A DNA stretch of 64,000 bases from Candidatus Poribacteria bacterium (GTDB lineage Bacteria > Poribacteria > WGA-4E > WGA-3G), in NCBI GenBank assembly GCA_009841255.1, contig VXMD01000018.1, forward strand, positions 62,001 to 126,000, given 5' to 3'. Below are positions 7,543 to 22,926 of the stretch, in pieces. How positions within the stretch are numbered: position 1 is the first letter of the stretch; every line of letters begins with the position of its first letter. Position numbers and translations under genes: made by a program. The notes under the pieces were generated by a model. The model did no database searches, was not told the origin of the DNA, and worked only from the letters and a program-made list of their open reading frames with translations.

Positions 7543-8109
7543 TTATACGGCTTCACACGCTTCACAGACTAAGGCGAAACGTTTGGTGCCGTTTGCCTCA
7601 AATTCGGTCTCGTAATCATAACTGACCGGCACGTTTGACGCGCCACACCAATCACAGCGCCCAGAAAAGATGTGTGCTTTCTGTCCCAACAGCATTTCCT
7701 TCTGCTCCTCAACTTTTCGGGTGGCAGCGATGAGATCAAGCGCATTTTGGCGGAGTTTCTGATCGGTTTCCTCTTTGACAATCCTCTCAAGGAGCGGTTG
7801 GAGTCTCGGATCGTTTGGGTTCCCGCCGTCCTCGAGTGTATGCCATGCGGCTTTGCGGACGCGCAGATCGGGATCGACCAAGCCCTTGTAGAGTGCTACC
7901 CATACTTTGTCAATGCTTTTCCGAACGTGGCAGGGACAGAGATTGTCCATCGCCTCGACGCGATCATCTGGATTGGAAGAATACGCCAGAGAGAGGTAGT
8001 ACTCGACCTCATTACCGCGCAATCGATCCTCACGTCGGCGGTGCGCTTTTTTCTGATACTTGTTCATGCCTCTCATTTTTCTTTCCTTCGGAATTCCATG
8101 TTTTGGCAT
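7543..8109 (-). CDS. HEAT-repeat-like protein with C-terminal zinc-binding motif
   Basis: I do not recognise a named family. The 188-residue protein has a very basic N-terminus (KKAHRRREDRLRGN), then helical repeats resembling HEAT/PBS-lyase units (DPDLRVRKAAWHTLEDG, about residues 80-96). A C-terminal zinc-ribbon-like pattern CDWC at about 153-156 pairs with CEAC near 183-186. HEAT repeats usually mediate protein contacts. The start ATG8109 has a strong ribosome binding site (GGGAGGAAACAG). It stands alone between the sigma operon and the defence block. Confidence 0.7.
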   Translation of the reverse strand: MPKHGIPKERKMRGMNKYQKKAHRRREDRLRGNEVEYYLSLAYSSNPDDRVEAMDNLCPCHVRKSIDKVWVALYKGLVDPDLRVRKAAWHTLEDGGNPNDPRLQPLLERIVKEETDQKLRQNALDLIAATRKVEEQKEMLLGQKAHIFSGRCDWCGASNVPVSYDYETEFEANGTKRFALVCEACEAV

Positions 8110-8262: not shown

Positions 8263-11200
8263 CTAATCAAACTTCAGTTCATCCGTGACTTTGCGAAGTG
8301 CCTCGTTTATCTTTTCTAATACTTCATTAGATGGAGGTTCGCCTTCAGCGGTAATTGTGACACGAAACTGAAAGTCAAGCTCAGGGGCAATGTCAGCCAA
8401 ATCAGCAACCGTTTCAGCCAAATCCTGAATTTCAATTTCTGTAAGGAAGGACTCAGCGTGTCGTATCCACTTACCCTGTCTTGCTGACACATGGTAAAAG
8501 TCGGGGGTTAACGAGCCCCCTAAAACGATTAAGCCACTACCAATTGCGCCTTCGACCGCTTCGAGAAATACATGATCAGATATAGTAGTCCCTATATTAG
8601 ACTCAAGTGTCTCCTTAATCAATCCGAGCGTAGGGTTTCCAGATTCCCACGCGGCTTTTGCGTCACTTCCGATGAGATCCTTTGGTGCTATTTTTACTGT
8701 TGCTTGTGAAACTTTTAGACCGACCTTATCGGCTTCTTCGGGAGCACAGGGCCACGAGGGACTCCCCTCAATGAATTCAAAGAGCTGTTTCTCGCGAGCG
8801 TCATTGATAGCATCAACAATCAATGACCACGGAATCGGCGAACCTTTGAGTGCTGATAGCGCACGTATTATTTTACCGACAGATGATGTTTCGTTCTCCC
8901 ATGCGTCCAGTAGAGTTTTGTGGCTGATTTCTAAACCGCTGATGGGTTGTAGCGGCTCGAGTAATTCCAGATCGTTGGTTATCTCCGCGTCAGGAACGGG
9001 TTCTTTAAGATATGCTTTGTCCTCGCGGCGTGCCATGAGTAAACTGTTCTGGACAGCAGCCTGAATTGTCTCAAAGAGAATCTTGTCAGAAGCGAGTTTG
9101 GGAACATCGTCTCCCTTGAAGAATTCCCGAATTGCGCCTACTGTTATCGGGACATTATCACCTTGCCACAACTCTGGTAGTTGACCCGGAACTAATAAAT
9201 CAGCACTAAGGGTGTGGAGTTCGGCGTGTTCAATGGGAACGATTTCTAACGCTTTTTGCCAGTAATCTTCATCTGTAGTGAGCGTCTCGCGCCAATAAGT
9301 ATGTTGGGAGTCATCTGGACGGACGGTGCGTAGCACAATCTGACCTTCCGTAACGCCGCGCCGAAGTGTGTCAACGAATACCTGTCGGTTCAACAGCCGC
9401 GGTAGACGCGGAAGGCTGGCAAACATACCGTATAACCCTTGAACGGGTTTGGCGGTTTCGTCTTCTCCCCAGATATCAAAGTAACTCTCTGGTGTGAGCA
9501 GGTCTGGATCGAGTGAGGTTGTCAGCAATCTATCTTCGTCTACCAAAGCAGCTTTGACCCGTTCAAAAGGCGACTCTGGTCCCGATGGTAACAAACTTGC
9601 TTTAGTGTTGCCATCCTCGTCAACGGCAATTAACACGCTATACGCCGATATGACAGAGTCTAACATCCCGGATTCATCCTCTTGCTTACGTTGTAAGAGG
9701 AGTGCCTTCTGTGGTTCACTCAAAAGGTTCATATCGTCTCCGCTTTCGATATTTTGCCATGCAAGGATCTTACGGATGCGCTGTCGCAATCCTATGAGTC
9801 GAGCGTTTTCGGGAGCAAGCACAATGACGGTGTTCCGGTAGGTTCTATTGAAAAAGGCGGCGAGTGCGTCTGAAACGTTTTCGCCTGGCCCTGCTGCCCA
9901 TGCAGGACCGGCAACTACAAAGTGGAGTTCGGGATTGTCAGGAATATCAGCAGGCGAATGAGGTAATGTGTGAACATTCACGCTATCGGTGTTCCGACCA
10001 AGTTTGGCATCTCTTATCCGCTTCTCCAGATTTTCTGTGATTTGGTCTTCGTTAATTCTCGCCATGGCACGGACGTGCATATTGGTGAGATTGGGAGTCG
10101 TTCCCAAAGCCCAACTACTTTCGTTTTCTTTGAGGAACCAGGAAACTTCTCTCCAGTCAGAAAGCCCTTTCTCGATTGACATCGGGTCAATGTCAGCGTG
10201 TGCAAGCAACAGATAGAGGTCTGCCAATTCTGCTTTCTGTCCGATGGGTTGCGAATGCAAAAAAGTGGATAGTACTGCGGCTTCAACTTCTCGGAATTTG
10301 AGGCGTGGTAAATCTTTCTGAATGTTACGGGCTCTTTCAAGCTCACCTGTGAGGATGGGTGTCCACTGTGTGCCTTCATCACACGCCCTAACAAGTTCTT
10401 GAAGAGCATCCGAGAGTCCGGTATCGGTGGTGAGGAGTGCATTGGGTCCGACAAACGCCGCCGTGTCTTTTTCAGCGGCTTCTCTCAGCATCAATGCGAA
10501 GGTCCGAAACATCCCGCGTGTTCCTTGAAAATTGTTCAGCTGCGTCCATTTTTGATAGAAGGCCTCAATCAGATCAGGATGAAATGGATAAGATCGCAAG
10601 AGTTCATCATAAGCTTCCTGATGCTTATCTACTTCACGGAGTGGGAGTTTTTGTCTGGATGCGACGAGGCGATCTACAACAGCACGGCGTATTCGCTCAG
10701 GTGGAACAGATTCAAACAAGCGACGGCGCAATAATTCCGAAACATCGTCCCGCGACACAGGTTCGACATTGTGTTCCAAACGCCGAAACACCCCTTCCAG
10801 CATATTTAGCACGCTAACGCTGGTCGGATCATCGGCGATAATGTCAGAGGTGATGAGGCTTGCAACGATTGCCGAGCGTTTTACTTTACCGATTGCTTGC
10901 GTAAGCCCCTGGAAAAAATCTCGCAAAGTTCCCAAGCGATTTCGGTCCGCATCAACGGTACCACGTGTATACATGAGGGCTTCGTCGAGTAAGATAAGGG
11001 TGGACAATCCTTCGGTCTGTGGTGCTTTGAGTAGGTCAACAAGTATTGGCTCAGCAGGCGTAGTATAATCGGCTTCATGTCCGGCGACTCTTGCGAGTCC
11101 CTCATCGCCGACGAGTTGATACGCTAATGCCCCCCAAGGTGTTTTGAGCTGCCGTTTCTTACCGTTGGGACCTACCACTGAAAGTCCGTTTTTCACGTCG

Positions 11201-11607
11201 AATTTGTCAAAAGGGAGAATAGCAACTCTCGCCTGCGGTAGTGTATCTAAGCCACTGAATCCGGTAAATTCCCGAACAGTCGAATGTGTTTGCAATTCAG
11301 TGCCGTGTTCTGCCAAATGTAAGAGAGCAATCAGGGCATGGGTTTTTCCCCCGCCGTAAGCGACTTGAAGGGTGATGACAGGATTGCCGCCTTCTCCTGC
11401 TAACCGTCGGAGAACGTCTCGCGCCAACGTTTTGAGATTATAGGTCGGGTAGGTGCGGTCGAAAAAGAGGGTTGGGACTCGATAGACATTAGGGGCATCC
11501 CCTGTTCGCACAGCATAGAGATCCGCTGCGAATTCTGCGAGTTCCAGTGTGCCTTGTCGGACATCATCCCTTAAAATACAGTGTTCATGCCATGCGTTAG
11601 TGCTCAT
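8263..11607 (-). CDS. DUF499-family large P-loop ATPase
   Basis: Large AAA-type ATPase of the kind annotated DUF499, a family found in prokaryotic defence islands with DNA methylases and helicases. The Walker A is VAYGGGKTHALIALLHLAEH (about residues 82-101 from Met1607) and Walker B LSTLILLDEAL lies near residue 203. The remaining ~900 residues show no catalytic motif I can name; the last 80 are acidic and helical. The ATG at 11607 is chosen over GTG11652 because GGGAAGGGAT lies 7-12 bases upstream; length is then 1114. It is the last gene of the seven-gene block and may have its own promoter at 11643-11671. Its size and partnership with a methylase recall BrxC/PglY of BREX, but that is analogy only. 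Confidence 0.85.
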   Translation of the reverse strand: MSTNAWHEHCILRDDVRQGTLELAEFAADLYAVRTGDAPNVYRVPTLFFDRTYPTYNLKTLARDVLRRLAGEGGNPVITLQVAYGGGKTHALIALLHLAEHGTELQTHSTVREFTGFSGLDTLPQARVAILPFDKFDVKNGLSVVGPNGKKRQLKTPWGALAYQLVGDEGLARVAGHEADYTTPAEPILVDLLKAPQTEGLSTLILLDEALMYTRGTVDADRNRLGTLRDFFQGLTQAIGKVKRSAIVASLITSDIIADDPTSVSVLNMLEGVFRRLEHNVEPVSRDDVSELLRRRLFESVPPERIRRAVVDRLVASRQKLPLREVDKHQEAYDELLRSYPFHPDLIEAFYQKWTQLNNFQGTRGMFRTFALMLREAAEKDTAAFVGPNALLTTDTGLSDALQELVRACDEGTQWTPILTGELERARNIQKDLPRLKFREVEAAVLSTFLHSQPIGQKAELADLYLLLAHADIDPMSIEKGLSDWREVSWFLKENESSWALGTTPNLTNMHVRAMARINEDQITENLEKRIRDAKLGRNTDSVNVHTLPHSPADIPDNPELHFVVAGPAWAAGPGENVSDALAAFFNRTYRNTVIVLAPENARLIGLRQRIRKILAWQNIESGDDMNLLSEPQKALLLQRKQEDESGMLDSVISAYSVLIAVDEDGNTKASLLPSGPESPFERVKAALVDEDRLLTTSLDPDLLTPESYFDIWGEDETAKPVQGLYGMFASLPRLPRLLNRQVFVDTLRRGVTEGQIVLRTVRPDDSQHTYWRETLTTDEDYWQKALEIVPIEHAELHTLSADLLVPGQLPELWQGDNVPITVGAIREFFKGDDVPKLASDKILFETIQAAVQNSLLMARREDKAYLKEPVPDAEITNDLELLEPLQPISGLEISHKTLLDAWENETSSVGKIIRALSALKGSPIPWSLIVDAINDAREKQLFEFIEGSPSWPCAPEEADKVGLKVSQATVKIAPKDLIGSDAKAAWESGNPTLGLIKETLESNIGTTISDHVFLEAVEGAIGSGLIVLGGSLTPDFYHVSARQGKWIRHAESFLTEIEIQDLAETVADLADIAPELDFQFRVTITAEGEPPSNEVLEKINEALRKVTDELKFD

Positions 11608-11642
11608 GGACTTATCCCTTCCCAGGTTATAGGGGGTTGGAC

Positions 11643-11671
11643 ATTTTACCACGATCAGCTGAATAAGGCAA
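11643..11671 (-). promoter_or_regulatory. Possible internal promoter for the DUF499 gene
   Basis: Minus-strand TTGCCT (11671-11666) and TAAAAT (11648-11643) are spaced 17 bases apart, overlapping the end of the coiled-coil gene. TSS would fall about 30 bases before ATG11607. The -35 match is modest. Confidence 0.35.
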
Positions 11672-11999
11672 TCAGCGCGATAATCACTGCTGCAATTGCT
11701 GCCCCTGTTGTGAAGACGGTCAACATTCTACCGCTGCCTTCCTGCTTCCCCTCCAATTTTCCTTTGACCCATCCGACATCGTGCTTCAATTGCCCGACGT
11801 GGGTTTCTATAGCATCGAGCCGTTTTTCTAAGCGTTCGTTATCCTTTTCCCTTTGTGTCTCAATAGCATCGAGTCGTTTTTCTAAGCGTTCGTTATCTTC
11901 TCTCCTTTGTGCTTCAATGCTATCAAGTCGTTTTTCTAAACGCGATTCAATCCCCGACAAGGCTTCAAAAACCCTGTCCTGAAAATTTTGATCGGTCAT
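11655..11999 (-). CDS. Small coiled-coil protein with C-terminal membrane helix
   Basis: A 114-residue protein not assignable to a named family. Residues about 15-60 are three tandem copies of a 17-residue unit (LEKRLDAIETQREKDNE and variants) that should form a coiled coil. A shorter linker (GQLKHDVGWVKGKLEGKQ) leads to a C-terminal hydrophobic segment (LTVFTTGAAIAAVIIALIAL) that would anchor it in the inner membrane with the coil in the cytoplasm. Similar small DUF-type coiled-coil/TM proteins exist widely. I choose ATG11999 because AGAGAGGTAATAGAG precedes it. It lies two bases from the DUF499 frame's upstream extension and 137 bases after the methylase. Confidence 0.72.
   Translation of the reverse strand: MTDQNFQDRVFEALSGIESRLEKRLDSIEAQRREDNERLEKRLDAIETQREKDNERLEKRLDAIETHVGQLKHDVGWVKGKLEGKQEGSGRMLTVFTTGAAIAAVIIALIALFS
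11815..11960. repeat. 51-base tandem repeats inside the coiled-coil gene
   Basis: Three in-frame copies of a unit containing AGTCGTTTTTCTAAGCGTTC at 51-base spacing. Two copies are almost identical at DNA level, including silent positions, which indicates recent expansion or contraction. Confidence 0.8.
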
Positions 12000-12043
12000 C
12001 TCTATTACCTCTCTTGAGAACTCGCTCGCATACGATATAGTGC

Positions 12044-12073
12044 AGTTTAGCACGATTTCTCCGCTAAAGTCAA
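12044..12073 (-). promoter_or_regulatory. Possible internal promoter before the coiled-coil gene
   Basis: TTGACT (12073-12068) and TAAACT (12049-12044) on the minus strand, 18 bases apart, in the gap after the methylase. It would let the last two genes of the block be transcribed separately. Confidence 0.5.
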
Positions 12074-12135
12074 CCGAAAATTAACTGTGATTCTGATGAT
12101 TGACTGTAATTTTTGTGAGAACCACAACGCGGATT

Positions 12136-15054
12136 TTAAGAAATATCGTTAAATGTGAGCTGCTGTTCGGTTTCATTCGCAGCCTGCCGTGGAAACGAAA
12201 CACCACTGACCACTTCCCCCGGTTCGTAGTTGATGAGTGTCTCCAAAAGCGATCTTTCGCTGGCACCTTGCGGACTCGTTTCGATGAGTGCCTGAACGAC
12301 TGCCTTGAAAAGAGGGTTCTCTTGAAGCCCGTGCTCGTGGAAGTAGGCGTCGATGTGTGCGCTGTCACTCTTATCCCAGAGTTTCATGATCCTATGGATC
12401 ATGTCTATCATAGGAATCCTACCGGAGGTGTGTGCATAACCAACTCGGTCTGAAGTGCGTTCGGTATGTCCAAGCAGTTTTAGTGCGCTGCCGGATGAGA
12501 CCTTCTTTAAAAACCCGGTCTGTGCCGCCCGTAAATCGTCAAGTAACACACCATAGCCTTGTGCCAAGAGGATGCACTCACCTACAGGTGCGTTTTCCGT
12601 ACCGAAATAATCCTTGTGCATTAGGTAGTAGCGGGTCCATTCGTCCAAGGCTTCCGTGCTTGTCCCGTGCAGTATCTGTCCTAAGGCGAAATCGGTTACA
12701 ATACGCCGGACCTCTGTCAGAAATTCTGTTACTGTGAAAGGTTCACCCGTACTCCGCCTGACCTCTTTGTAACTGGAGTAGCTCTCTAATGCAGGTCCGA
12801 TGGCTGACCAGACAAAATCGGGGCCTCGGACACCTTCGTCCCAGAAGTAGCGGAGGCGTTCAGTAATCCGATCCTGCATCCCGCGTTTGACTTTGCCGTA
12901 ATGCCCAACTCTTGCTTTTATCGGACGTTTTCGACAGACCATCCAGAGCGAAGTTGCAAGTGCAGCGCGATTTAATTTAAGGCCACCCTGAAGTTCCGTG
13001 TCAATCGGCCACGACGCTGTAATGACGAGTCCCGATTGAATCATTGCCTTTGTTAGAGTCTCCCAAGCATCAGGGTTTTTGTGGGCAAAAACAATTACTA
13101 TTAAACCGTCCGTCGATAACGATTGATACGCCGCCCGAAAACTCTCAGCCATTCCATCTTCGTAAAATGCTTTTGCCGCTTTTTTGTCCCCATCAAAACG
13201 TTCTGAATGTTGAACAAGTTCCGCCGGCTTAGGCGTAAGAGGTTCGGTAAAAGCATCAGGGTATCCATCGCCAATTGAACGCCGGAGCCATACATAGAAA
13301 AAATCCGACAGGTGTGCATAAGGTATTGCGTCGTAGTAAGGTGGATCTGTAATAATTGCATCGACTTCCCCTTCAAGTCCTTGCTGTGCGGATGAAATCA
13401 CAACCTTGGGTCGCGGGAAATCCGAGCACAAGCCTGCTAGGGTTTTTTCCAAGAAACGCCCAACAGAATCAATTGCTCCTCTATAGTATCTATTTGAATC
13501 AAAAAGCGGATTGCCCTCCGCAAAGTCCCAAATTATAGGAAAGGCAAATCGAAGAAATGTCTGTTTGACTTCCTCCGCGTTCTGTTCCCAGATACAAGCC
13601 GTACTGGCATAGTTGGAAAGTCGATTGATCAAGATACCCAAATACGCTACAACTGACTCAATCCATTCTACCGAATACCCTAGCCTCGCCATATCGTCTT
13701 GGGCTGTTCGCGTCCATTTTACAAACGTCATTAATGCCAATAATTGTCGAGTTGAAAACACATCTGACCATTTCTTGAAACCATAGAGTGGGATACTAAA
13801 TCCGAGTGTCTGAGGCCCCGGCATCGCTTCCTCAGGTACTCCGTGTGGAATTTGGTCAGCGATTGCTCCCAATTCCTCTGTCGATACTTCCGCTTTATCA
13901 ATTTCTTCCTGTGCCGGTGAGCGGTACTCCTTACCGTATTCCTCTTGATAAACGACTGCTGTCATCTGTGCCTTGAGTTTACCTTCATGTCCACACTGTT
14001 TGATATAGTCATCGGGCTGCTGTGAACCACAGTCAGGAAATGGACAGATCGCTCCTGAACCTGACTTTGTGGGTTTACCAACATCATCTGCGTTTTTAGG
14101 TGCGATAATCTCAAATCGGACACGTTTTGTCTTAGGATCCGGGCAAAGTTTGAGGGCGCGCTTTCCGTTGATAATAACTTTAGTCTGATTTTTCGTCTCT
14201 TTGAGTCGGAGAAAGTCAGGACGTTCTCGATTTTCCGGTGTGTCTGGAAGGGTTTTCTCCGCTTTTTTGCAAACCCACAGTGTCTTAAGTAGCGGAATCG
14301 TGGCACCACACTGTGGATCTTGGCACGGAATGGTTCTTGCCCAGAGATAAGCAACCGTTGGCTTGTTGTCAACTACAGGATAGTATTGCACAAGTTCCTT
14401 CCGAGCACTTTCCAAAACCCATTGTCCCCATAAGCGGACATGATCGGCGAGATCTCCCTCCCTCAGATTAGGTTTTTCATCAAGATTGAGATCAGGGAGC
14501 TTCGCTGTTTTTCCGGCGAGACGTTGTGGATATTCAAGAGAGCATTTGAGAAGGAACCACGCAACTGGGTTATAGTCGCTTGCGGTGACCTCACAGCCAA
14601 GGCGCATCGCCTCCAAGGGAATAGCACCTCCGCCTGCGAACATATCCATCACTTTCGGTGGATGTCCATCATAAGCCATTAGGATGAGATCCCTGGCGAT
14701 ATGGAGTTTATTGAGCCACCGGTCATTCTTATCTTTTGCATTCCAATCAGCATGTCCGTTTTCGTCGCCCCACCGAGTTAGTGAAGCAATCAGATCATTG
14801 CACAAATATTCTCGCTGTTTTTCAGGTAAAGGGGACCCGGAAAGGCGTGTGTATTCTGCCTTTATTTTCTCAGGGGCATCGGCGGGATCCGGCAGTAATG
14901 TAGCTATCGTCACGGCGCGGCATGCGGCAAGAGGACGACGCGCAGGCCAGATATGAAGTGTGGAAATATGACCGTGACGGACATTCTTTTCATGTTTTGA
15001 GTCTTCGGAGACCTTTTGTAGTGGAAAGGCTTCCTCAATAAGTCTACGTGGCAA
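12136..15054 (-). CDS. DUF1156 adenine-type DNA methyltransferase
   Basis: Large DNA methylase of the DUF1156 type. The N-terminus is the DUF1156 signature (RRLIEEAFPLQKVS, then HISTLHIWPARRPLAACRAV, residues 2-48). SAM-binding motif I is DMFAGGGAIPLEA (about 136-148). Catalytic motif IV is TDPPYYDAIPYAHLSDFFYV near residue 569. Two Cys-rich pairs between them (CQDPQC..., CPFPDCGSQ...) look like zinc ribbons. The 972-residue length suits the family, which is recurrent in defence islands next to DUF499 ATPases and helicases. The start is TTG15054 with AGGAG nine bases upstream. Expected product is N6-methyladenine; the target site is unknown. Confidence 0.88.
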   Translation of the reverse strand: MPRRLIEEAFPLQKVSEDSKHEKNVRHGHISTLHIWPARRPLAACRAVTIATLLPDPADAPEKIKAEYTRLSGSPLPEKQREYLCNDLIASLTRWGDENGHADWNAKDKNDRWLNKLHIARDLILMAYDGHPPKVMDMFAGGGAIPLEAMRLGCEVTASDYNPVAWFLLKCSLEYPQRLAGKTAKLPDLNLDEKPNLREGDLADHVRLWGQWVLESARKELVQYYPVVDNKPTVAYLWARTIPCQDPQCGATIPLLKTLWVCKKAEKTLPDTPENRERPDFLRLKETKNQTKVIINGKRALKLCPDPKTKRVRFEIIAPKNADDVGKPTKSGSGAICPFPDCGSQQPDDYIKQCGHEGKLKAQMTAVVYQEEYGKEYRSPAQEEIDKAEVSTEELGAIADQIPHGVPEEAMPGPQTLGFSIPLYGFKKWSDVFSTRQLLALMTFVKWTRTAQDDMARLGYSVEWIESVVAYLGILINRLSNYASTACIWEQNAEEVKQTFLRFAFPIIWDFAEGNPLFDSNRYYRGAIDSVGRFLEKTLAGLCSDFPRPKVVISSAQQGLEGEVDAIITDPPYYDAIPYAHLSDFFYVWLRRSIGDGYPDAFTEPLTPKPAELVQHSERFDGDKKAAKAFYEDGMAESFRAAYQSLSTDGLIVIVFAHKNPDAWETLTKAMIQSGLVITASWPIDTELQGGLKLNRAALATSLWMVCRKRPIKARVGHYGKVKRGMQDRITERLRYFWDEGVRGPDFVWSAIGPALESYSSYKEVRRSTGEPFTVTEFLTEVRRIVTDFALGQILHGTSTEALDEWTRYYLMHKDYFGTENAPVGECILLAQGYGVLLDDLRAAQTGFLKKVSSGSALKLLGHTERTSDRVGYAHTSGRIPMIDMIHRIMKLWDKSDSAHIDAYFHEHGLQENPLFKAVVQALIETSPQGASERSLLETLINYEPGEVVSGVSFPRQAANETEQQLTFNDIS

Positions 15055-15070
15055 TTGAGAATTCTCCTAT

Positions 15071-15883
15071 TTATGTTTTAACCTGTTCCAATCTGATAAA
15101 TGGTTGAAAAAGCGGATGCTCCATCATTCGTTGCTTAATAACCCATCCAAGAATAATTGGAAACTTCAACTGGAATTCATTCGGGATTTCAAGGAAAAGG
15201 GTTGGCTGCGATGGAGTCTCCTGAGATGCCAAGCGTAGTAAGATATAACATGTCCATTGAGTGACATGGTGCAAAAAAGGATTTGGCACGAACTTCCCAT
15301 CCGATAACGCTTGAAGTTTTTCACGAGCATTCGTACTCATATTCACTTGATCCAGCCATCGCTTGATTTGGATATGTTTCATCTCTGGCTCCCCTTGCGC
15401 CATGCATAGAAAGAGCGCAGTATCTGTGTCATAAAATACCGATCTCTCAAGATTATCGGTGACAGGAGCAAGCAAGTAAGGGTCGTCAAAACGGAGTTTG
15501 TCAACAACAAGAAGAAGGGATTCAAGAACCAAACTGCGAAGACTCGAGTTATGATGATTTAGATTAGCACGTGCCATATTTATCCAAGACGAGTCTGAGG
15601 AAAGCGCGTACAGTGCAACTTCAATCGGCAACAATCCATACCACTTCCTACGCCTGAAATCGACGTGTTGTTTCGTTTCACAGGCAAAAGCAGAGATTTC
15701 GTCGATCAATGCCTGTTTAAAACACTCAGGAGCAAAAACAGCGAACCATTGGACAAAAAAGGCGCGCAGCTCTTGTGCTTCCGGAATCGGCCTTTGGTCA
15801 AAATTATGAACCCAAAGTTCAAATTCCGATTGTAGAATCCTTGATAATTTTTCTTGGTTAATGGGAAGTAAAGGAACAAACAT
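15071..15883 (-). CDS. Unknown protein in defence block
   Basis: A 270-residue soluble protein that I do not recognise. No catalytic motif, signal or membrane segment stands out. It is predicted mostly helical, rich in Leu, Trp and Phe, with a middle part (about residues 95-150) resembling helical repeats (SLRSLVLESLLLVVDKLRFD). It lies 16 bases upstream of the methylase and 66 bases downstream of the HNH gene on the same strand, so it is likely co-expressed and may be a scaffold or specificity partner. ATG15883 has only a weak ribosome binding site. Confidence 0.75.
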   Translation of the reverse strand: MFVPLLPINQEKLSRILQSEFELWVHNFDQRPIPEAQELRAFFVQWFAVFAPECFKQALIDEISAFACETKQHVDFRRRKWYGLLPIEVALYALSSDSSWINMARANLNHHNSSLRSLVLESLLLVVDKLRFDDPYLLAPVTDNLERSVFYDTDTALFLCMAQGEPEMKHIQIKRWLDQVNMSTNAREKLQALSDGKFVPNPFLHHVTQWTCYILLRLASQETPSQPTLFLEIPNEFQLKFPIILGWVIKQRMMEHPLFQPFIRLEQVKT

Positions 15884-15949
15884 TTTTATTACTCTTGGTT
15901 GCTGATGATTAAAGCATCAAAAACCTCTATAAGTCCTGCCTCATACAAT

Positions 15950-16828
15950 TCAACGCCCAGATACAGAAGAAAGTTCATCGAAGTACCGGATCATACCCGC
16001 AAATGGTGCCCTTGGAGCCTTCATTCTCTCTATGGTGTTTATGATATCGATCCGCATTTCTGGAGAGGTCCTATCATTTTCAAGTGCCATTCTAAAGACC
16101 CTATACGAATGGTATAAATCATATCTCTGGACCTTGAGCTCTATACGATTCAAGCCGTAGTGTTGGATAGATGCCGTAGCAATAGACTCAACTTCAGGGT
16201 TTTCAGTGTTAACGATGACCTCAACTTGGAAATTTTCAGAGTTAGGCGTGACTTCAACTTCCTTCAGCACATCATCAGCACGCCATGCAAAGTATTCAGC
16301 AGGATCATCGAAATACGGGTTGAGTAGGCGTGGACGTTCCTGTTTATGTTGGTAAATGAAATCATTAACTTCATCTTGATTTAGCGGATCAGGACCGATC
16401 GTTCCCGCTTTAGAGGCTATAAACGCATCTGTTGTGTCCCGACGAACTATTGGCCCCCGCATCTTCTGACCTTGGATTGGGAAAGCATCCTTCTTGAACC
16501 TCTGATTACAAATTTGACATGAAGCGAGATAATTGTCGTAGCAATAGACGAGCCACCAATAGGTGCTTTTGGGGCGGTAATGGTCGACATCCCCGAAGGC
16601 AACCCCTGACACCGGTGCTTCGCAATAGGCACATTTGCCGCCTGTCTCGGCAAGGAGTTGTTTTTTCGCTGGTTTCCAACGGTTGTTGTTGAAGATATGT
16701 TTTTGAATCTCACCGAGCCTGATACGCCGCTGGTCAATCAATAAGTCCTCCTCAAACGCCTTCTTTTTTTCGCCGTGAAAGTTGGCGTGGATGTCTGTTT
16801 TTAATCGACTTCTCCTTAAGCGTATCAC
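15950..16828 (-). CDS. HNH endonuclease, PtuB-like
   Basis: A 292-residue HNH nuclease with the zinc-stabilised form of the fold: CAYC (residues 66-69), the DVDHYRPKS core with catalytic His about 83, and CQIC (104-107). This arrangement matches the retron/Septu-associated HNH group (PtuB-like). Its GTG start overlaps the stop of the upstream ATPase gene by four bases (GTGA), so the pair is translationally coupled, exactly as PtuA-PtuB are. By analogy the nuclease degrades nucleic acid when released or activated by the ATPase. No reverse transcriptase is nearby, so this is not a retron. Confidence 0.85.
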   Translation of the reverse strand: MIRLRRSRLKTDIHANFHGEKKKAFEEDLLIDQRRIRLGEIQKHIFNNNRWKPAKKQLLAETGGKCAYCEAPVSGVAFGDVDHYRPKSTYWWLVYCYDNYLASCQICNQRFKKDAFPIQGQKMRGPIVRRDTTDAFIASKAGTIGPDPLNQDEVNDFIYQHKQERPRLLNPYFDDPAEYFAWRADDVLKEVEVTPNSENFQVEVIVNTENPEVESIATASIQHYGLNRIELKVQRYDLYHSYRVFRMALENDRTSPEMRIDIINTIERMKAPRAPFAGMIRYFDELSSVSGR

Positions 16829-18087
16829 CCCCTGCCCTCCAGCAATTCTTTCTCAATTTTTTGCAAAAGCTGCGCGTGTTCTTCGGAGAGTTTCATATTT
16901 GACCTGTCGCTAGTCGGGAGTTCCGTTAGGGTCGCTTTTAACTGGTTCAACTCCTCTTGATCCTTAGACGACAGATTCGCTTTGTCGCGGAGGTGACGGT
17001 ATCGATTCTTCATATCCTCAATCTCTTTTGATTCATCTGTATCCAATCCAAAGGCAGGAGACATCACCAGTTGGTGTAAAAGGAGTGTGTTCGGGGCACC
17101 GGAAAAGGGGTAGAGGTGAATTTTCCGCCTTTCGCGCGTCAAACAGTGGAGTTCTCCCTCCCTCGCTTGTTGGGCGGCCATGGGTGAATGTGTTGTTACA
17201 ACGAGTTGAAAATTGGGTAACCATTTGTCAAGAAACGCTAACAGTTCGCGTTGCCGCTTTGGATGGAGATGCAGGTCAACCTCGTCGATGAGGAGCAGAC
17301 CCTTTGCAGTAAGAGGTTGTTCTTGTAAGTCATCAAAGTTCTCTAAAACTCGGAATAAGAGGTCCCCCATCCAAGCTGCCATTGCGAGATAGCCATCACT
17401 GAGACAATGTAAGGGGATAATGCCATCTGGGGTTTTAAATAGTAAGTGTCCGCTCTGTTTATCAATACGGTGAAACTTTATTTCTGGGAGCAAATTGCTC
17501 AGCACTTTCCGGACAGTTTCCAACCCAGTGCGATTTTCAAGATAATCAAGGTCCATTGCCCATGAATCAAGCGACGTGGTGGTTGCGTTGGGGTCAAACA
17601 GGGTAGCGACGCTTTGAGCTCTTTTGTTTGTAAACGTTGATGTGTTCGTTCTCCGGCTGTCGACTGTATTGAGGTGTCGGGACGCGCCGAAACCGAGAAC
17701 AAAATAGTCTTCCTTTTTCTGCTTTAGTGCGTCATCAAGCCATACGAGATTATGTTTGTTCTTTACAATAACATCGGCGCGGGTGTCCTTAGATTCAATC
17801 CGTAAACTTATCTTTTCCTCCTCTCTTTCTTTGGTGACCAAAACGGCAGAAATTTCACAATTTTGCGCTTTATACCGAATCCAGTCAGAAGGTTCGTCCA
17901 ACAGATCGTTTATCGCGTCACTCCCCCCAGTTATTAAAGCGATAGCTTTCAGAAGCGTGCTCTTCCCCATGCCATTTTCAGCCAGCAAGAGGGTCCGCTT
18001 GCGGATGTCGCCACGCTCGTTTTCAAATGATAAAGCAATGTCAGAAAAACATTTGACATTGTTCAAATAGATTGATTTGAGAAACAT
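16825..18087 (-). CDS. ABC-type (SMC-like) ATPase, PtuA-like
   Basis: A 420-residue ATPase with the split ABC/SMC head fold. Walker A is AENGMGKST (about residues 36-44), with the family start LKSIYLNNVKCFSDIALSF. The ABC signature region is CLSDGYLAMAAWMGDLL. Walker B is GLLLIDEVDLHLHPKRQREL, followed by switch His VVTTHSPMAAQQA. The C-terminus is a helical, charged tail (about 340-420). It is coupled to the HNH gene, which suggests the Septu PtuAB pair. The gene starts 5 bases after the helicase stop, so the pair is part of the larger operon and not a stand-alone insertion. Confidence 0.85.
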   Translation of the reverse strand: MFLKSIYLNNVKCFSDIALSFENERGDIRKRTLLLAENGMGKSTLLKAIALITGGSDAINDLLDEPSDWIRYKAQNCEISAVLVTKEREEEKISLRIESKDTRADVIVKNKHNLVWLDDALKQKKEDYFVLGFGASRHLNTVDSRRTNTSTFTNKRAQSVATLFDPNATTTSLDSWAMDLDYLENRTGLETVRKVLSNLLPEIKFHRIDKQSGHLLFKTPDGIIPLHCLSDGYLAMAAWMGDLLFRVLENFDDLQEQPLTAKGLLLIDEVDLHLHPKRQRELLAFLDKWLPNFQLVVTTHSPMAAQQAREGELHCLTRERRKIHLYPFSGAPNTLLLHQLVMSPAFGLDTDESKEIEDMKNRYRHLRDKANLSSKDQEELNQLKATLTELPTSDRSNMKLSEEHAQLLQKIEKELLEGRG

Positions 18088-18092
18088 CTTAT

Positions 18093-21000
18093 CTATTCCC
18101 TTATGGTTGGATTGAAGTTTGTATTGAATGTCTCTACACTCGAGTTTCTCATGATGTCACCGGCATTGATCCGTATGCTACCTGTGGCTCTTGCGGTCAA
18201 AGTGCCAAAGGGATCTCGGCATGGGTATAGCCGCGGTTCATCAGTATCACAATGATAGACGACGTAGAGCCAGTAACGGTCCCGATGATTGGCGGCTTGT
18301 CGCCACTCATTTGCTGTCAATTCGACGCTTGAAACGCCTGTGCGTCCTTTAACTTCAATGTATCGCACCTCGCCAGTTGGATGTGTAGATTGCAGGTCAA
18401 ATCCCTTTTTGAGGTTTGGATTGGAAACATCTTTGACTTCAGCGCAACACTTGTTTTCATGTTCTATAGCAATATTGATCGCTATCGCCTCGGCATCTCG
18501 TAGTGTTTTTGTCGGAATTTCTTCAATTGAAGATGGCGTAACAAAGGCGCGGACATAGATAGATACGGGACCCAATAGCGTGTTTTCGATCTCCTTAATG
18601 AGATTTGCTTCTGCTACTTCGCGCTTTTTAGGGAGCGCTTTGATCTCCTGTTCACAGGTGTTTAGTTTCGCTTGGGCTACAGGCACCCCCTTCACAACAG
18701 CATCTTTCAGGTTACGTCGCTGTTCAAGCAGTTCCGCCTTCCGCAAGTTAGACGAAACCTGAATTTGTCTGATTCTATTCTCCAACTGGGACTTAAGTGT
18801 ATCGTGAATGCCAGACAATTTCGGATATCCGAAGTTTTCACAGACAAATTTTTTAATGGGTTTTGTCTCGTCGGCGAGGTTAAGCCAGTCAGCGGACAAA
18901 GTAGAAGGCATGTCTTGTTGTGCTGTTCGCGGTGTCAGCGTCAATAAGAGATGTGCCGGTGTCTCTTCACACCGTCCATCTAACGATTGTTTGACTCCCA
19001 CAAGCATATCTTCAAGCACTTGAGAGGCTTCATCGGTTTTTCGCAGGATAGGCACTCTCACCAAATAGAACAGATAGGGTTCATCCGCATCTGGATCGAA
19101 ATAGACTGCCCCGCGCTCGCCTTCAGCGTTGAACTTTTCTAAAAAGCCGGTGCGAATCGCGTCAAAAATCGGCTCGCCCGGGTGGAGAAAAATCGCCTTT
19201 GATTTCTCGGACCCAGTGGGCAGTGCAATATCTCGGGAGAACGTTAACCGATCTCGGAGATGCGACGGATAGGCATCAATAGCATTTTGTACAGATACAG
19301 GATAGTCAGATAACTTAAAAGTCGCTTCAATGTCTCCGTCAATCCGATAACCTAGCAAGGGAGCTGCATCTTCAAAGAAACTTCGGACATACGCGGGAAG
19401 CAGGCGAAGCGTTTCGGCAGATTCTCTCTGCTCTTGGACGTTAGTGAGTAAACGTTTGACCGCGCTACTGGCGACCGATTTCTGCTGCCCCTCAAGTTGT
19501 TTTTGTATATTTTTGAGCGTAAATTGTGTATTGATAGTATGAATTGAGGTCTCGACTTGATTTTCCGTGATGGCTTTTGTGATAAGTTCCTTCAAAGAGA
19601 TCTGACTGAACTGTTGCCCAATCACATCAAACACCTTATCGTCATTCAATTCCTCACGCATCTTTTGCATTTTTTCCAGCAATACTCTTAACACACGTCC
19701 TTCACGCGTATCTTCAGCAACGAGATTCAGCAAAACCACCGTCCGTGTCTGCTTGTATCGGTGAATCCTTCCCATCCGCTGTTCAAGTCGAGCGGGGTTC
19801 CAAGGGATGTCGTAGTTGACCATGAGCCAACAGAATTGGAGGTTGATACCTTCCCCTGCTGCATCAGTTGCGACGAGATATTGCGCGCCGTTCGAGTCGC
19901 GAAAGAATTCCACCTGTTCCTCGCGTTCACTATATTTCATACCGCCGTGGATTTGTGCAACTTTATCGGTAAAACCCAATGCTTCTAAGCGTTCGATAAT
20001 AAAACACATCGTGTCGCGATGCTCAGTGAAAACCAGAACCTTTGTGTCTGGATACTCCGTTAATGCCTCCCAGAGTTTTCCAAATTTGCTTTCGGCTTTT
20101 AGATTATAAACCTTGCTTGCCAGCTCGGCAAGGTTTTGAACGTGAGAAATTTCAGTTTTAAGTTCAGTGATTGAACGAGCAGCGGTTGCACGTTCAAGGT
20201 CCTCATCAACCTGTTCTGCCTCTTCCTTTCCGTCAATAACTTCTTCTTCATCGCCTGTCTTTTCGTCTCTGATGTCAATATCGGAAAGTTCCGCTTGTGC
20301 TTTTTCCAACCTCTCTGTTGATAAGCTGCCATCTTTGAGGTCGCGAAGGGTGATTTGGAGTTTTTCTGCACGTCTGATCAGACTCTGCTGCAGCGCGAAC
20401 GTTGAACTGGCGAGTCTTCTTTGTAATACCATCATCGCCATTTTTGCCGCGCTCCGATTGTATTGACCAGCGAGATCAAAATATTTCTCACAATATGCTG
20501 TGACAGCATCGTACAAAGATTGCTCGCTTATTTCTCCCTGCTTGAGCGGATAGGCAATCGTCTGACTCCGCCGCGGTGGGTAGATAGGTTTCTCATCAAA
20601 TGTGATCATCTCCTCTTTCATGCGCCGAAGCAGGTGTTTAGATTTCTCTTGGTCAGGTAACCGTTCAAACGCCTTTTGTGCGGCCAGGTGCTCAGGTAAA
20701 AGCAATCGCCACAAAAAATAGTAGGCATCATCCTTCCCCATGTGCGGCGTTGCTGTGAGCAACAACAGATTTTTTTGTTGCGCGGCAATCCGTTCGGCAA
20801 GCTCATACCGTTTCGATTTGTCTACAGTTCCATCCGACTCATATCGTGCGGAGAGTTTATGTGCCTCGTCAAAAACGACTAAATCATAGGGTTGCGCTTC
20901 AAAGAGATAGTTCTGCATCCGCTCTTGCCGTAATGTATCAAGACTGATAATAGCCAAGCGATTTTTTGGGTCAGTAAAGGGATTGGTATCTGTTGCATCA

Positions 21001-21560
21001 GCACTGGACAGGATGCAGAATTGGAGACGGAAACAGACTCGTAATTCACGTTCCCAGTTTCCAATCAGTCCCGCTGGTGGTACAATCAGCACGCGTTCCA
21101 CTTGCTGCCGGAGTAACGCCTCTTGGATATAGAGGCCGGTCATAATTGTCTTTCCAGCACCCGCATCGTCAGCCAATAAGAACCGTAAGGGGACATGTTT
21201 GAGTAGATGTTCATAGACCGCGATGAATTGATGTGGCAGTGGATCAATCAGTGATGTTTCTGTGGCAAAGATCGGATTAAACAGATAAGCGTGTTGAAGG
21301 CGATGTGCCTCAGCAATAAGTCTTACCAGATTCGCATCCGCACGAAACGCATCGGATACAATTTCAAAACGGGATTGTAGTTGTTCAACGGAATCAGTAA
21401 ATGGTTCATCATCATTTTCAAAAAAGAGTCGCACGAAGGTATTGTGGGGCTCAATTCGACGAATTACCTTTTCCTCGTTTTGGTAAGTGTCGATTAACGT
21501 TACGCCGGGGTGAAGATCACCAATATGGAGTGTGTTTGTTTGCTGTGCTACGGAGTTCAT
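18093..21560 (-). CDS. SNF2-family helicase with C-terminal DUF3883
   Basis: A superfamily 2 DNA translocase of 1155 residues and first gene of the block. Motif I is DDAGAGKT (131-138), motif II DEAH (231-234), motif III LLLTATPHMGKDD, then VLVFTEHRDT (motif IV), ATDAAGEGINLQ (V) and EQRMGRIHRYKQ (VI). An insert of acidic coiled-coil lies at about 385-480. The last ~110 residues (CCAEVKDVSNPN, then YIEVKGR and YWLYVVY) match DUF3883, a PD-(D/E)xK-like domain; the E.K of IEVKGR is consistent with a nuclease-like fold. SNF2 helicases with this tail accompany DISARM-like and other defence methylases. The gene follows pepP by 58 bases with no clear promoter. Confidence 0.9.
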   Translation of the reverse strand: MNSVAQQTNTLHIGDLHPGVTLIDTYQNEEKVIRRIEPHNTFVRLFFENDDEPFTDSVEQLQSRFEIVSDAFRADANLVRLIAEAHRLQHAYLFNPIFATETSLIDPLPHQFIAVYEHLLKHVPLRFLLADDAGAGKTIMTGLYIQEALLRQQVERVLIVPPAGLIGNWERELRVCFRLQFCILSSADATDTNPFTDPKNRLAIISLDTLRQERMQNYLFEAQPYDLVVFDEAHKLSARYESDGTVDKSKRYELAERIAAQQKNLLLLTATPHMGKDDAYYFLWRLLLPEHLAAQKAFERLPDQEKSKHLLRRMKEEMITFDEKPIYPPRRSQTIAYPLKQGEISEQSLYDAVTAYCEKYFDLAGQYNRSAAKMAMMVLQRRLASSTFALQQSLIRRAEKLQITLRDLKDGSLSTERLEKAQAELSDIDIRDEKTGDEEEVIDGKEEAEQVDEDLERATAARSITELKTEISHVQNLAELASKVYNLKAESKFGKLWEALTEYPDTKVLVFTEHRDTMCFIIERLEALGFTDKVAQIHGGMKYSEREEQVEFFRDSNGAQYLVATDAAGEGINLQFCWLMVNYDIPWNPARLEQRMGRIHRYKQTRTVVLLNLVAEDTREGRVLRVLLEKMQKMREELNDDKVFDVIGQQFSQISLKELITKAITENQVETSIHTINTQFTLKNIQKQLEGQQKSVASSAVKRLLTNVQEQRESAETLRLLPAYVRSFFEDAAPLLGYRIDGDIEATFKLSDYPVSVQNAIDAYPSHLRDRLTFSRDIALPTGSEKSKAIFLHPGEPIFDAIRTGFLEKFNAEGERGAVYFDPDADEPYLFYLVRVPILRKTDEASQVLEDMLVGVKQSLDGRCEETPAHLLLTLTPRTAQQDMPSTLSADWLNLADETKPIKKFVCENFGYPKLSGIHDTLKSQLENRIRQIQVSSNLRKAELLEQRRNLKDAVVKGVPVAQAKLNTCEQEIKALPKKREVAEANLIKEIENTLLGPVSIYVRAFVTPSSIEEIPTKTLRDAEAIAINIAIEHENKCCAEVKDVSNPNLKKGFDLQSTHPTGEVRYIEVKGRTGVSSVELTANEWRQAANHRDRYWLYVVYHCDTDEPRLYPCRDPFGTLTARATGSIRINAGDIMRNSSVETFNTNFNPTIRE

Positions 21561-21618: not shown

Positions 21619-22926
21619 CTACCATTTTCTTGCTTGGACAAGTTCTTCAACTTCGTCAATCTCTTTTGGGACACCGTCTGTGAGGACTTCACAACCGTCC
21701 TCTGTGATGAGAACATCGTCCTCTATACGGACACCGATGCTGAGATACGCCGGTGGGACATCCTTTGTCCCCTCATCGACGTAGAGTCCGGGTTCAATCG
21801 TCATCACCATTCCGGGTTGGAAGGTTTTAAAATCGCCGTTGGATTCGTGGACGCAATTGACATCGTGGACATCCAAGCCGAGCATATGTCCGATTCGGTA
21901 CATGTAAAACTGCCGGTATGCCTCTTCCTTTATCAATTTCTTTGCTTTCCCCTTAAGAAGACCGAGACTGAGCATCCCTTCCGTCAACAATTCAATCGAC
22001 TTTTGGTGCGGTTCGTCAATGGAAACCCCTGGACGGATAGAATCAATAATGGTATAGTGTGCGTCAAGGACAATCTGATAAATTTCCCGCTGTGCTTCGG
22101 TGAAGGTGCCGTTTGCCGGGAAGGTCCGGGTCACATCGCCGGAGTACCGACCATATTCCGCGCCTGCGTCAATCAGCACAAGCGTTTCATCTTCAATCCG
22201 ACAGTCATTTGTTGTGTAGTGGAGCGTCGTGGCGTTTCCGCCACTCGCAACGATAGTCGGAAAAGCGCTGCCGTTCGCGCCGTTCATGCGGAACGTGGAC
22301 TCGACGAGCCCCTCCAGTTCGTATTCATAGAGTCCCGGACGAACTGCCTTCATTGCGGCGACGTGTCCGGCTACAGTAATTTCCGTCGCCAGTCGGGTGC
22401 GCTGCAGTTCGGTCTCATTTTTGATTAACCGCAACTCGCTGAGAATAGGACTCGGATCGACAAGCGTATCGAACCCTTTCCCGGATCGGATTCGTGATCT
22501 GACGGACTGTGTGAAAAGCGAGAGGGCTTCGGCGTCAACATCCGGATTGGAACCGAGGGTATAGTAAAGCCGCTCGGCATTCTGTAAGTATTTCCCGATT
22601 TTCTCACTGAATTTCTCTATCGAATAGGCTTTATCTGCCCCGTAGCGTTTACGGGCACCCTTAACGCCGACGCGCTTACCGTTCCAAATCTCCGCCTGTT
22701 TATCTTTCGGACGAACGAACAGAATGTACTGATGTTTCGGATGATCGGGCGCGATGACACAGATCGACTCTGGTTCTTCAAACCCCGTCAGGTAATAAAA
22801 ATTCGGATCCGGACGATAGTTATACTCGGTGTCGTGATTCCAGATTGCGGGGGGTTTACTGGCGAAGATAGCGACCCCGCCACGTCCCATCTTTTCAATA
22901 AAGGCTTCGCGATTTTGTTTGTACAA
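21619..22926 (-). CDS. pepP: Xaa-Pro aminopeptidase (M24B)
   Basis: Cytoplasmic metallopeptidase that removes N-terminal residues before proline. It has an aminopeptidase P N-terminal domain (about residues 1-150) and a pita-bread M24 domain carrying the metal ligands: Asp in LIDAGAEY and in YSGDVTRTFP, His in RIGHMLGLDVHD, Glu in TIEPGLYVDE and in GVRIEDDVL. Length 435 is normal for PepP. The start is TTG22926, with GAGGAGAA about eight bases upstream and a CCTTGCGGAGG repeat module before that. Confidence 0.92.
   Translation of the reverse strand: MYKQNREAFIEKMGRGGVAIFASKPPAIWNHDTEYNYRPDPNFYYLTGFEEPESICVIAPDHPKHQYILFVRPKDKQAEIWNGKRVGVKGARKRYGADKAYSIEKFSEKIGKYLQNAERLYYTLGSNPDVDAEALSLFTQSVRSRIRSGKGFDTLVDPSPILSELRLIKNETELQRTRLATEITVAGHVAAMKAVRPGLYEYELEGLVESTFRMNGANGSAFPTIVASGGNATTLHYTTNDCRIEDETLVLIDAGAEYGRYSGDVTRTFPANGTFTEAQREIYQIVLDAHYTIIDSIRPGVSIDEPHQKSIELLTEGMLSLGLLKGKAKKLIKEEAYRQFYMYRIGHMLGLDVHDVNCVHESNGDFKTFQPGMVMTIEPGLYVDEGTKDVPPAYLSIGVRIEDDVLITEDGCEVLTDGVPKEIDEVEELVQARKW

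Follow-up and report, generated by a model that had tools for sequence, protein, structure and literature searches.

A predicted Hma operon with an embedded Septu-type gene pair in a sponge-associated Candidatus Poribacteria genome

The gene arrangement HmaA-HmaB-HmaC was described as the Hma system, the discovery of which came via its frequent co-occurrence with Septu type I (PMC8565338). The same arrangement was described as Type-1 BR in a report on DUF499-centred BREX-related (BR) systems, which covers the Type-1 BR mechanism and nucleases inside the locus (PMC12839542). Dyads of an OLD-ABC ATPase and an HNH protein within BREX and BR loci are also reported there, in a main text that does not use the name Septu. 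Accessory genes within Hma operons form an established category, the Hma-embedded candidates, some members of which are reported to be active (PMC12988326; PMC10855318); the HEC families of this category go back to the Payne 2024 preprint, as cited in PMC12988326. Septu of Escherichia coli cuts tRNA-Tyr, and the Walker residues of PtuA and the HNH residues of PtuB are required (PMC13096335).

Analysis of a window of 64,000 nucleotides (the whole stretch of DNA that was analysed, located in a 205-kb contig of a 5.7-Mb assembly of a sponge-associated Poribacteria MAG) revealed a block of seven co-oriented open reading frames on the minus strand at positions 8263 to 21560. A sequence-only reading of the window had placed seven close genes here, and their coordinates and order were confirmed. 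In the direction of transcription, the block and its two boundary genes are as follows.

21619 to 22926, minus strand: upstream boundary gene, Xaa-Pro aminopeptidase-like (by eye), kept at occupied and empty sites
18093 to 21560, minus strand: HmaA, RapA/DrmD-like SNF2 helicase with a C-terminal NOV_C (DUF3883) domain
16825 to 18087, minus strand: PtuA-like, OLD/ABC-type ATPase of Septu, PADLOC match over residues 1-414 of 420
15950 to 16828, minus strand: PtuB-like, HNH nuclease family, 4-nt overlap with PtuA
15071 to 15883, minus strand: X270, 270 aa, predicted all-helical accessory that matches no family model
12136 to 15054, minus strand: HmaB, DUF1156 amino-methyltransferase with a DPPY motif and a TTG start
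11655 to 12053, minus strand: coiled-coil/TM protein, 132 aa, one C-terminal hydrophobic helix, located in the HmaB/HmaC gap
8263 to 11607, minus strand: HmaC, DUF499 AAA+ ATPase, start moved from 11652 to 11607
7543 to 8109, minus strand: downstream boundary gene, 188 aa, HEAT-like (by eye), kept at occupied and empty sites

The spacings from HmaA to HmaC are 5, -4 (overlap), 66, 16, 82 and 2 bases, the last of which is counted from position 11652. Nearly all HmaC relatives align from the conserved Met16 (position 11607), which is probably the true start; the gap to the coiled-coil gene is then 47 bases rather than 2. The HEAT-like gene is followed downstream by genes for an ECF sigma factor, an ABC transporter and a solute-binding protein, and no further defence genes were found among the neighbouring genes examined. 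Rfam and tRNA scans of the window gave no matches, and a scan for consensus promoters and terminators performed no better than on shuffled sequence. The closest public records of the whole gene cluster are Candidatus Poribacteria MAGs. Elsewhere in the same genome (G000:C78, L013), a second DUF1156 and DUF499 pair with 28-30% identity and a different gene order adjoins the gene for a 1180-aa protein that weakly matches a predicted nuclease.

Comparison with PADLOC profiles assigned the core genes to HmaA (1.4e-188), HmaB (3.9e-123) and HmaC (4.2e-101), and the flanked ATPase and HNH genes to PtuA (6.9e-128) and PtuB (6.2e-34). At the Pfam level, DUF499 (1.6e-20), DUF1156 (2e-20) and AAA_15 (7.4e-18) were recovered, and HmaA was found to contain SNF2, Helicase_C and NOV_C/DUF3883 domains, with NOV_C at 4.5e-20. 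The best PDB match of HmaA is RapA (5e-32); HmaB and HmaC have no PDB relative detectable by sequence. The D and ExK residues of the HmaA motif GFDL...IEVKG are invariant in 18/18 Poribacteria copies. NOV_C belongs to what we take to be the PD-(D/E)XK nuclease clan, and the domain is a probable nuclease of this type. Type-1 BR helicases are characterised by an active nuclease domain at the C-terminus together with TUDOR and inactive REase domains at the N-terminus. HmaB shows invariant DMFAGGG and DPPYYD motifs in 21/21 copies; among 17 copies of HmaC, YGGGKTH is invariant and LLDEALM largely conserved. Judged by these profiles and motifs, the core of the block is an Hma system, alias a Type-1 BREX-related system: all three core genes are present in the order HmaA-HmaB-HmaC, the helicase carries a C-terminal domain of probable nuclease type, and neither PglZ nor DUF3780 occurs. 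It differs from many, not all, Type-1 BR systems in that HmaC has no HEPN fusion, and from the described arrangement in the extra genes that occupy two inter-gene gaps.

The ATPase/HNH pair between HmaA and HmaB is assigned, likewise by homology, to Septu PtuA/PtuB. The best PDB matches of PtuA are the PtuA proteins of retron Ec78 and Septu, its Walker A and Walker B/H-loop residues are conserved in 16 copies, and the CxxC...[DE]H...N...CxxC residues of PtuB are conserved in 13/13 copies. As in Septu type I, both genes are adjacent, overlapping and full-length, with conserved motifs. In contrast to Septu type I, the pair is not free-standing, a third gene (X270) lies downstream, and PtuA belongs to a PADLOC PDLC00295-like subfamily distinct from the PtuA of E. 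coli and retrons. Retron I-A/Septu type II (RT-PtuA-PtuB) shares the PtuA and PtuB homologues and was rejected: a reverse transcriptase is missing, the gene that ends 5 bases before PtuA is HmaA, and no Rfam match was obtained. The pair is of the same dyad class as the OLD-ABC ATPase and HNH dyads of BREX/BR loci, and it resembles Hma-embedded candidates in being an accessory defence unit within an Hma operon, with HEC/PDC families in the same gaps of relatives; the cargo here, by contrast, is no new HEC but Septu, a system that already has a name.

The domain assignments of the sequence-only reading (DUF1156, DUF499, SNF2/DUF3883, PtuA-like and PtuB-like) were thus upheld by profile searches. 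The profiles also support its proposal of a defence-type locus in which a methylase may mark self, alongside a helicase, a DUF499 ATPase and, as the potential cutter of nucleic acid, the PtuAB pair. Its claim to know of no described system with this gene set fell, because HmaABC is already known as Hma and the association with Septu is already published (PMC8565338). The comparison with DISARM, BREX, Dpd and Druantia that it had called for yielded no fit, since defining genes are missing. No PglZ is encoded among the seven genes (BREX and Type-3 BR); HmaA has no PLD domain in Pfam and the block gave no DUF3780 match (Type-2 BR). The DrmD model of DISARM scored 319 bits against a cut-off of 610 bits, with no match to DrmB or DrmC, and DpdE of Dpd reached 184 bits where 500 are required, its partner genes being absent from the block. 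DruE and other defining genes of Druantia were likewise not found in the block.

The distribution of the block was surveyed in 85 genomes of the phylum, with at least 65% identity as the cut-off for the HmaB subfamily; all loci of this clade derive from MAGs. Of the genomes with HmaB of the subfamily, 16 also have PtuA and 5 lack it (G066, G029 with three copies, G046, G027 and G028). All 16 full-length copies of the PtuA subfamily lie in Hma loci and none stands alone; in 14 of the 16 loci, PtuA is located between HmaA and HmaB on a single contig, the G052 locus being split across two contigs and the G055 contig stopping before HmaA. About 15 other Poribacteria genomes share the gene order, and in most cases the block occupies a single, common chromosomal site. 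These results indicate that the block is a conserved, real unit, and chance juxtaposition or an assembly artefact is ruled out by the many independent assemblies. PtuB is absent in two loci with intact PtuA (L073 and L079), and in L079 a 337-aa protein directly follows PtuA.

Most loci of the genus share common flanking genes wherever the contig extends to them, and the HEAT-like gene was found in 37/38 genus genomes. The boundaries drawn in the sequence-only reading match a unit that is present or absent between these same two genes. Elsewhere in the genus the site is empty or holds only Hma scraps, and in many block-less genomes the aminopeptidase-like gene is joined straight to the HEAT-like gene. 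Since flanks are joined or scraps left at Hma-less sites, the block is an old resident that has been repeatedly lost as a unit. A recent mobile-island insertion in the genus was rejected: the flanks are shared, and scraps at some empty sites point to loss. In one genome of another family (G021, L085), the block lies at a different place with other flanks; therefore, some transfer happens. Among Hma-less sites, L130 and L131 retain part of an MntA-like gene (by eye), L132 retains the HmaB tail and the coiled-coil gene, and L141 retains the HmaC tail.

Outside the phylum, 19 PtuA relatives with 40-57% identity were found, in Zixibacteria, Pseudomonadota, Chloroflexota and Myxococcota. PtuB lies beside PtuA in 18 of them, and Hma genes lie beside PtuA in none (0/19) across the flanking sequence retrieved, of which there is only a short length for L110 and L122. 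Full-length HmaB occurs anywhere in only one of these genomes (G101), on a contig other than that of PtuA. A scan of viral contigs gave no relative of the PtuA subfamily of the block.

Analysis of the gaps revealed exchangeable cargo. Between HmaA and HmaB, four loci (L077, L082, L087 and L088) have no gene of at least 90 aa and lack PtuAB, and in L075 (G066) two other ORFs replace PtuAB. A 296-aa ORF of the latter locus (L075:7108-7998) resembles, by eye, an Rpn/PD-(D/E)XK transposase-like nuclease and has no Pfam match. In related Hma loci outside the phylum, the HmaA/HmaB gap takes HEPN, NYN, OLD-ATPase plus TOPRIM and PARIS-like cargo: an AriA/PDC-M07A-type ATPase with a 242-aa protein (L190), an AriA/AriB pair (L191), an OLD-type ATPase (L164), RelE/HigA (L163), HEC-09, an NYN-type protein by eye (L195), HEC-08/DUF3644 (L203) and PDC-M38 with PDC-S06 (L205). 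In a pseudomonadotal locus (L202) this gap is filled by a PtuA-PtuB pair of another, canonical type (1.2e-180 and 7.1e-97), and Septu therefore entered it at least two times. In Poribacteria, the HmaB/HmaC gap is occupied by the coiled-coil gene, by MntA, HepT or both, or by nothing recognisable; elsewhere it also takes VapBC and HicAB. Coiled-coil homologues occupy the same gap in L075, L081, L083 and L084, and the number of short EKRLDAIETQ-like repeats in this gene differs among relatives. Hma-type operons with RelE/HigA, VapBC, HicAB, PARIS-like or OLD-type modules in these two gaps were seen on cyanobacterial and Thermus plasmids (L163, L164, L188 and L190-L193).

The stretch 3' of PtuB is also variable: X270 is found in 5 genomes, an unrelated family of 336-363 aa in 3, a DUF3644-HEPN gene (PDC-S19) in 1 and other ORFs in 1, or it is empty. 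X270 was detected in 5/85 phylum genomes; where its neighbours can be read from the contig, it adjoins PtuB, HmaB or both. It has no match in Pfam, PADLOC (including HEC/PDC models), NCBIfam or PHROG and none significant in the PDB; an AF2 prediction is all-helical at low confidence (pLDDT 49).

Relative to the window copy, HmaA, HmaB, HmaC and PtuA have a median dN/dS of 0.12-0.15, PtuB of 0.21 and X270 of 0.28, compared with 0.06-0.08 for the two boundary genes; with synonymous differences as large as 0.4-0.67, these values are approximate. Nearly every copy retains its catalytic motifs. The three Hma genes and both Septu genes are under purifying selection. Distance matrices of PtuA and HmaA are correlated (r 0.60, p 0.0005), which is the only firm result of 21 tests with 7-13 loci each; HmaB and HmaC gave r 0.38 (p 0.02). 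No correlation was found between these two halves of the locus, and PtuA does not track HmaB or HmaC. Between PtuA and PtuB the correlation in the genus is only weak (r 0.15, p 0.07), and as PtuA tracks HmaA, the pair does not act here like a perfectly co-inherited module. The locus looks like a mosaic recombining near its middle. The gene trees of HmaA, HmaB, HmaC and PtuA are mutually discordant, so that no single history of gain and loss can be drawn.

The gene identities, intact motifs, purifying selection, gene order, fixed site and turnover of cargo are most readily accommodated by an Hma operon of restriction-modification (RM) type that carries an embedded Septu module, and we consider it likely that the two work in layers, the enzymatic activities and the layering being what we infer. 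HmaB would methylate host DNA at the target site. HmaC and HmaA would survey DNA, and the NOV_C domain of HmaA would cut when DNA is unmethylated. PtuA would hold PtuB in check; once set off by infection, or by a breakdown of the first layer, PtuB would cut nucleic acid, possibly host tRNA as in E. coli Septu, and phage production would stop. Septu would thus be a back-up effector, possibly abortive, behind the RM-like Hma core, with X270 and the coiled-coil/TM protein as exchangeable accessories.

The sequence-only reading had leaned towards one seven-gene system. In an integrated system of this kind, PtuAB (with X270) would be the dedicated effector of this Hma lineage, switched by HmaC/HmaA sensing, and neither half would defend alone. 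Its expectation of a recurrent order held, with 16 loci and the order kept within the phylum. The restriction of this PtuA subfamily to Hma loci in the phylum (16/16), the 5-nt HmaA-PtuA spacing with the 4-nt PtuA/PtuB overlap, and the tracking of HmaA distances by those of PtuA all favour such integration. On the single-system part the outcome went the other way: PtuAB stands without Hma in 19/19 cases outside the phylum and Hma homologues bear other cargo in the same gap, which points to a module embedded in Hma and away from a machine of seven parts. Integration is further opposed by the Poribacteria Hma loci with no PtuAB or with a replacement, by the two loci that lack PtuB and by PtuA distances that do not track HmaB or HmaC; we regard it as quite improbable. 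A narrower version, in which Septu is an obligate Hma-triggered second stage here and the coupling of methylation sensing to PtuAB, or immunity, is supplied by X270 or by what stands in its place (the family of 336-363 aa or DUF3644-HEPN), seems very doubtful.

At the other extreme, Septu may simply be co-transcribed from an insertion-tolerant gap, so that shared expression and transfer would be its only ties to Hma. Passive linkage fits the unrelated modules, RelE/HigA among them, that other phyla carry in the same gap, as well as the hosting of MntA-HepT, VapBC and HicAB in the HmaB/HmaC gap. However, the pair is retained under purifying selection across deep divergence in the genus, and most of the cargo, in a small sample, is of nuclease or defence type and not a random assortment of genes. 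Passive linkage is judged unlikely, and the layered Hma operon with an embedded Septu module is preferred.

The combination has already been reported in the literature, and the locus is a largely ordinary yet instructive example: a well-preserved natural case of one defence system nested in another. It also contributes X270, a small family from the Hma/Septu context that matches no function model. Across the genus, this one site may contain Hma together with Septu, Hma with different cargo, only remnants of Hma or nothing, and relatives carry Hma without Septu; this variety makes the question of whether Septu is a coupled back-up or a passenger directly testable.
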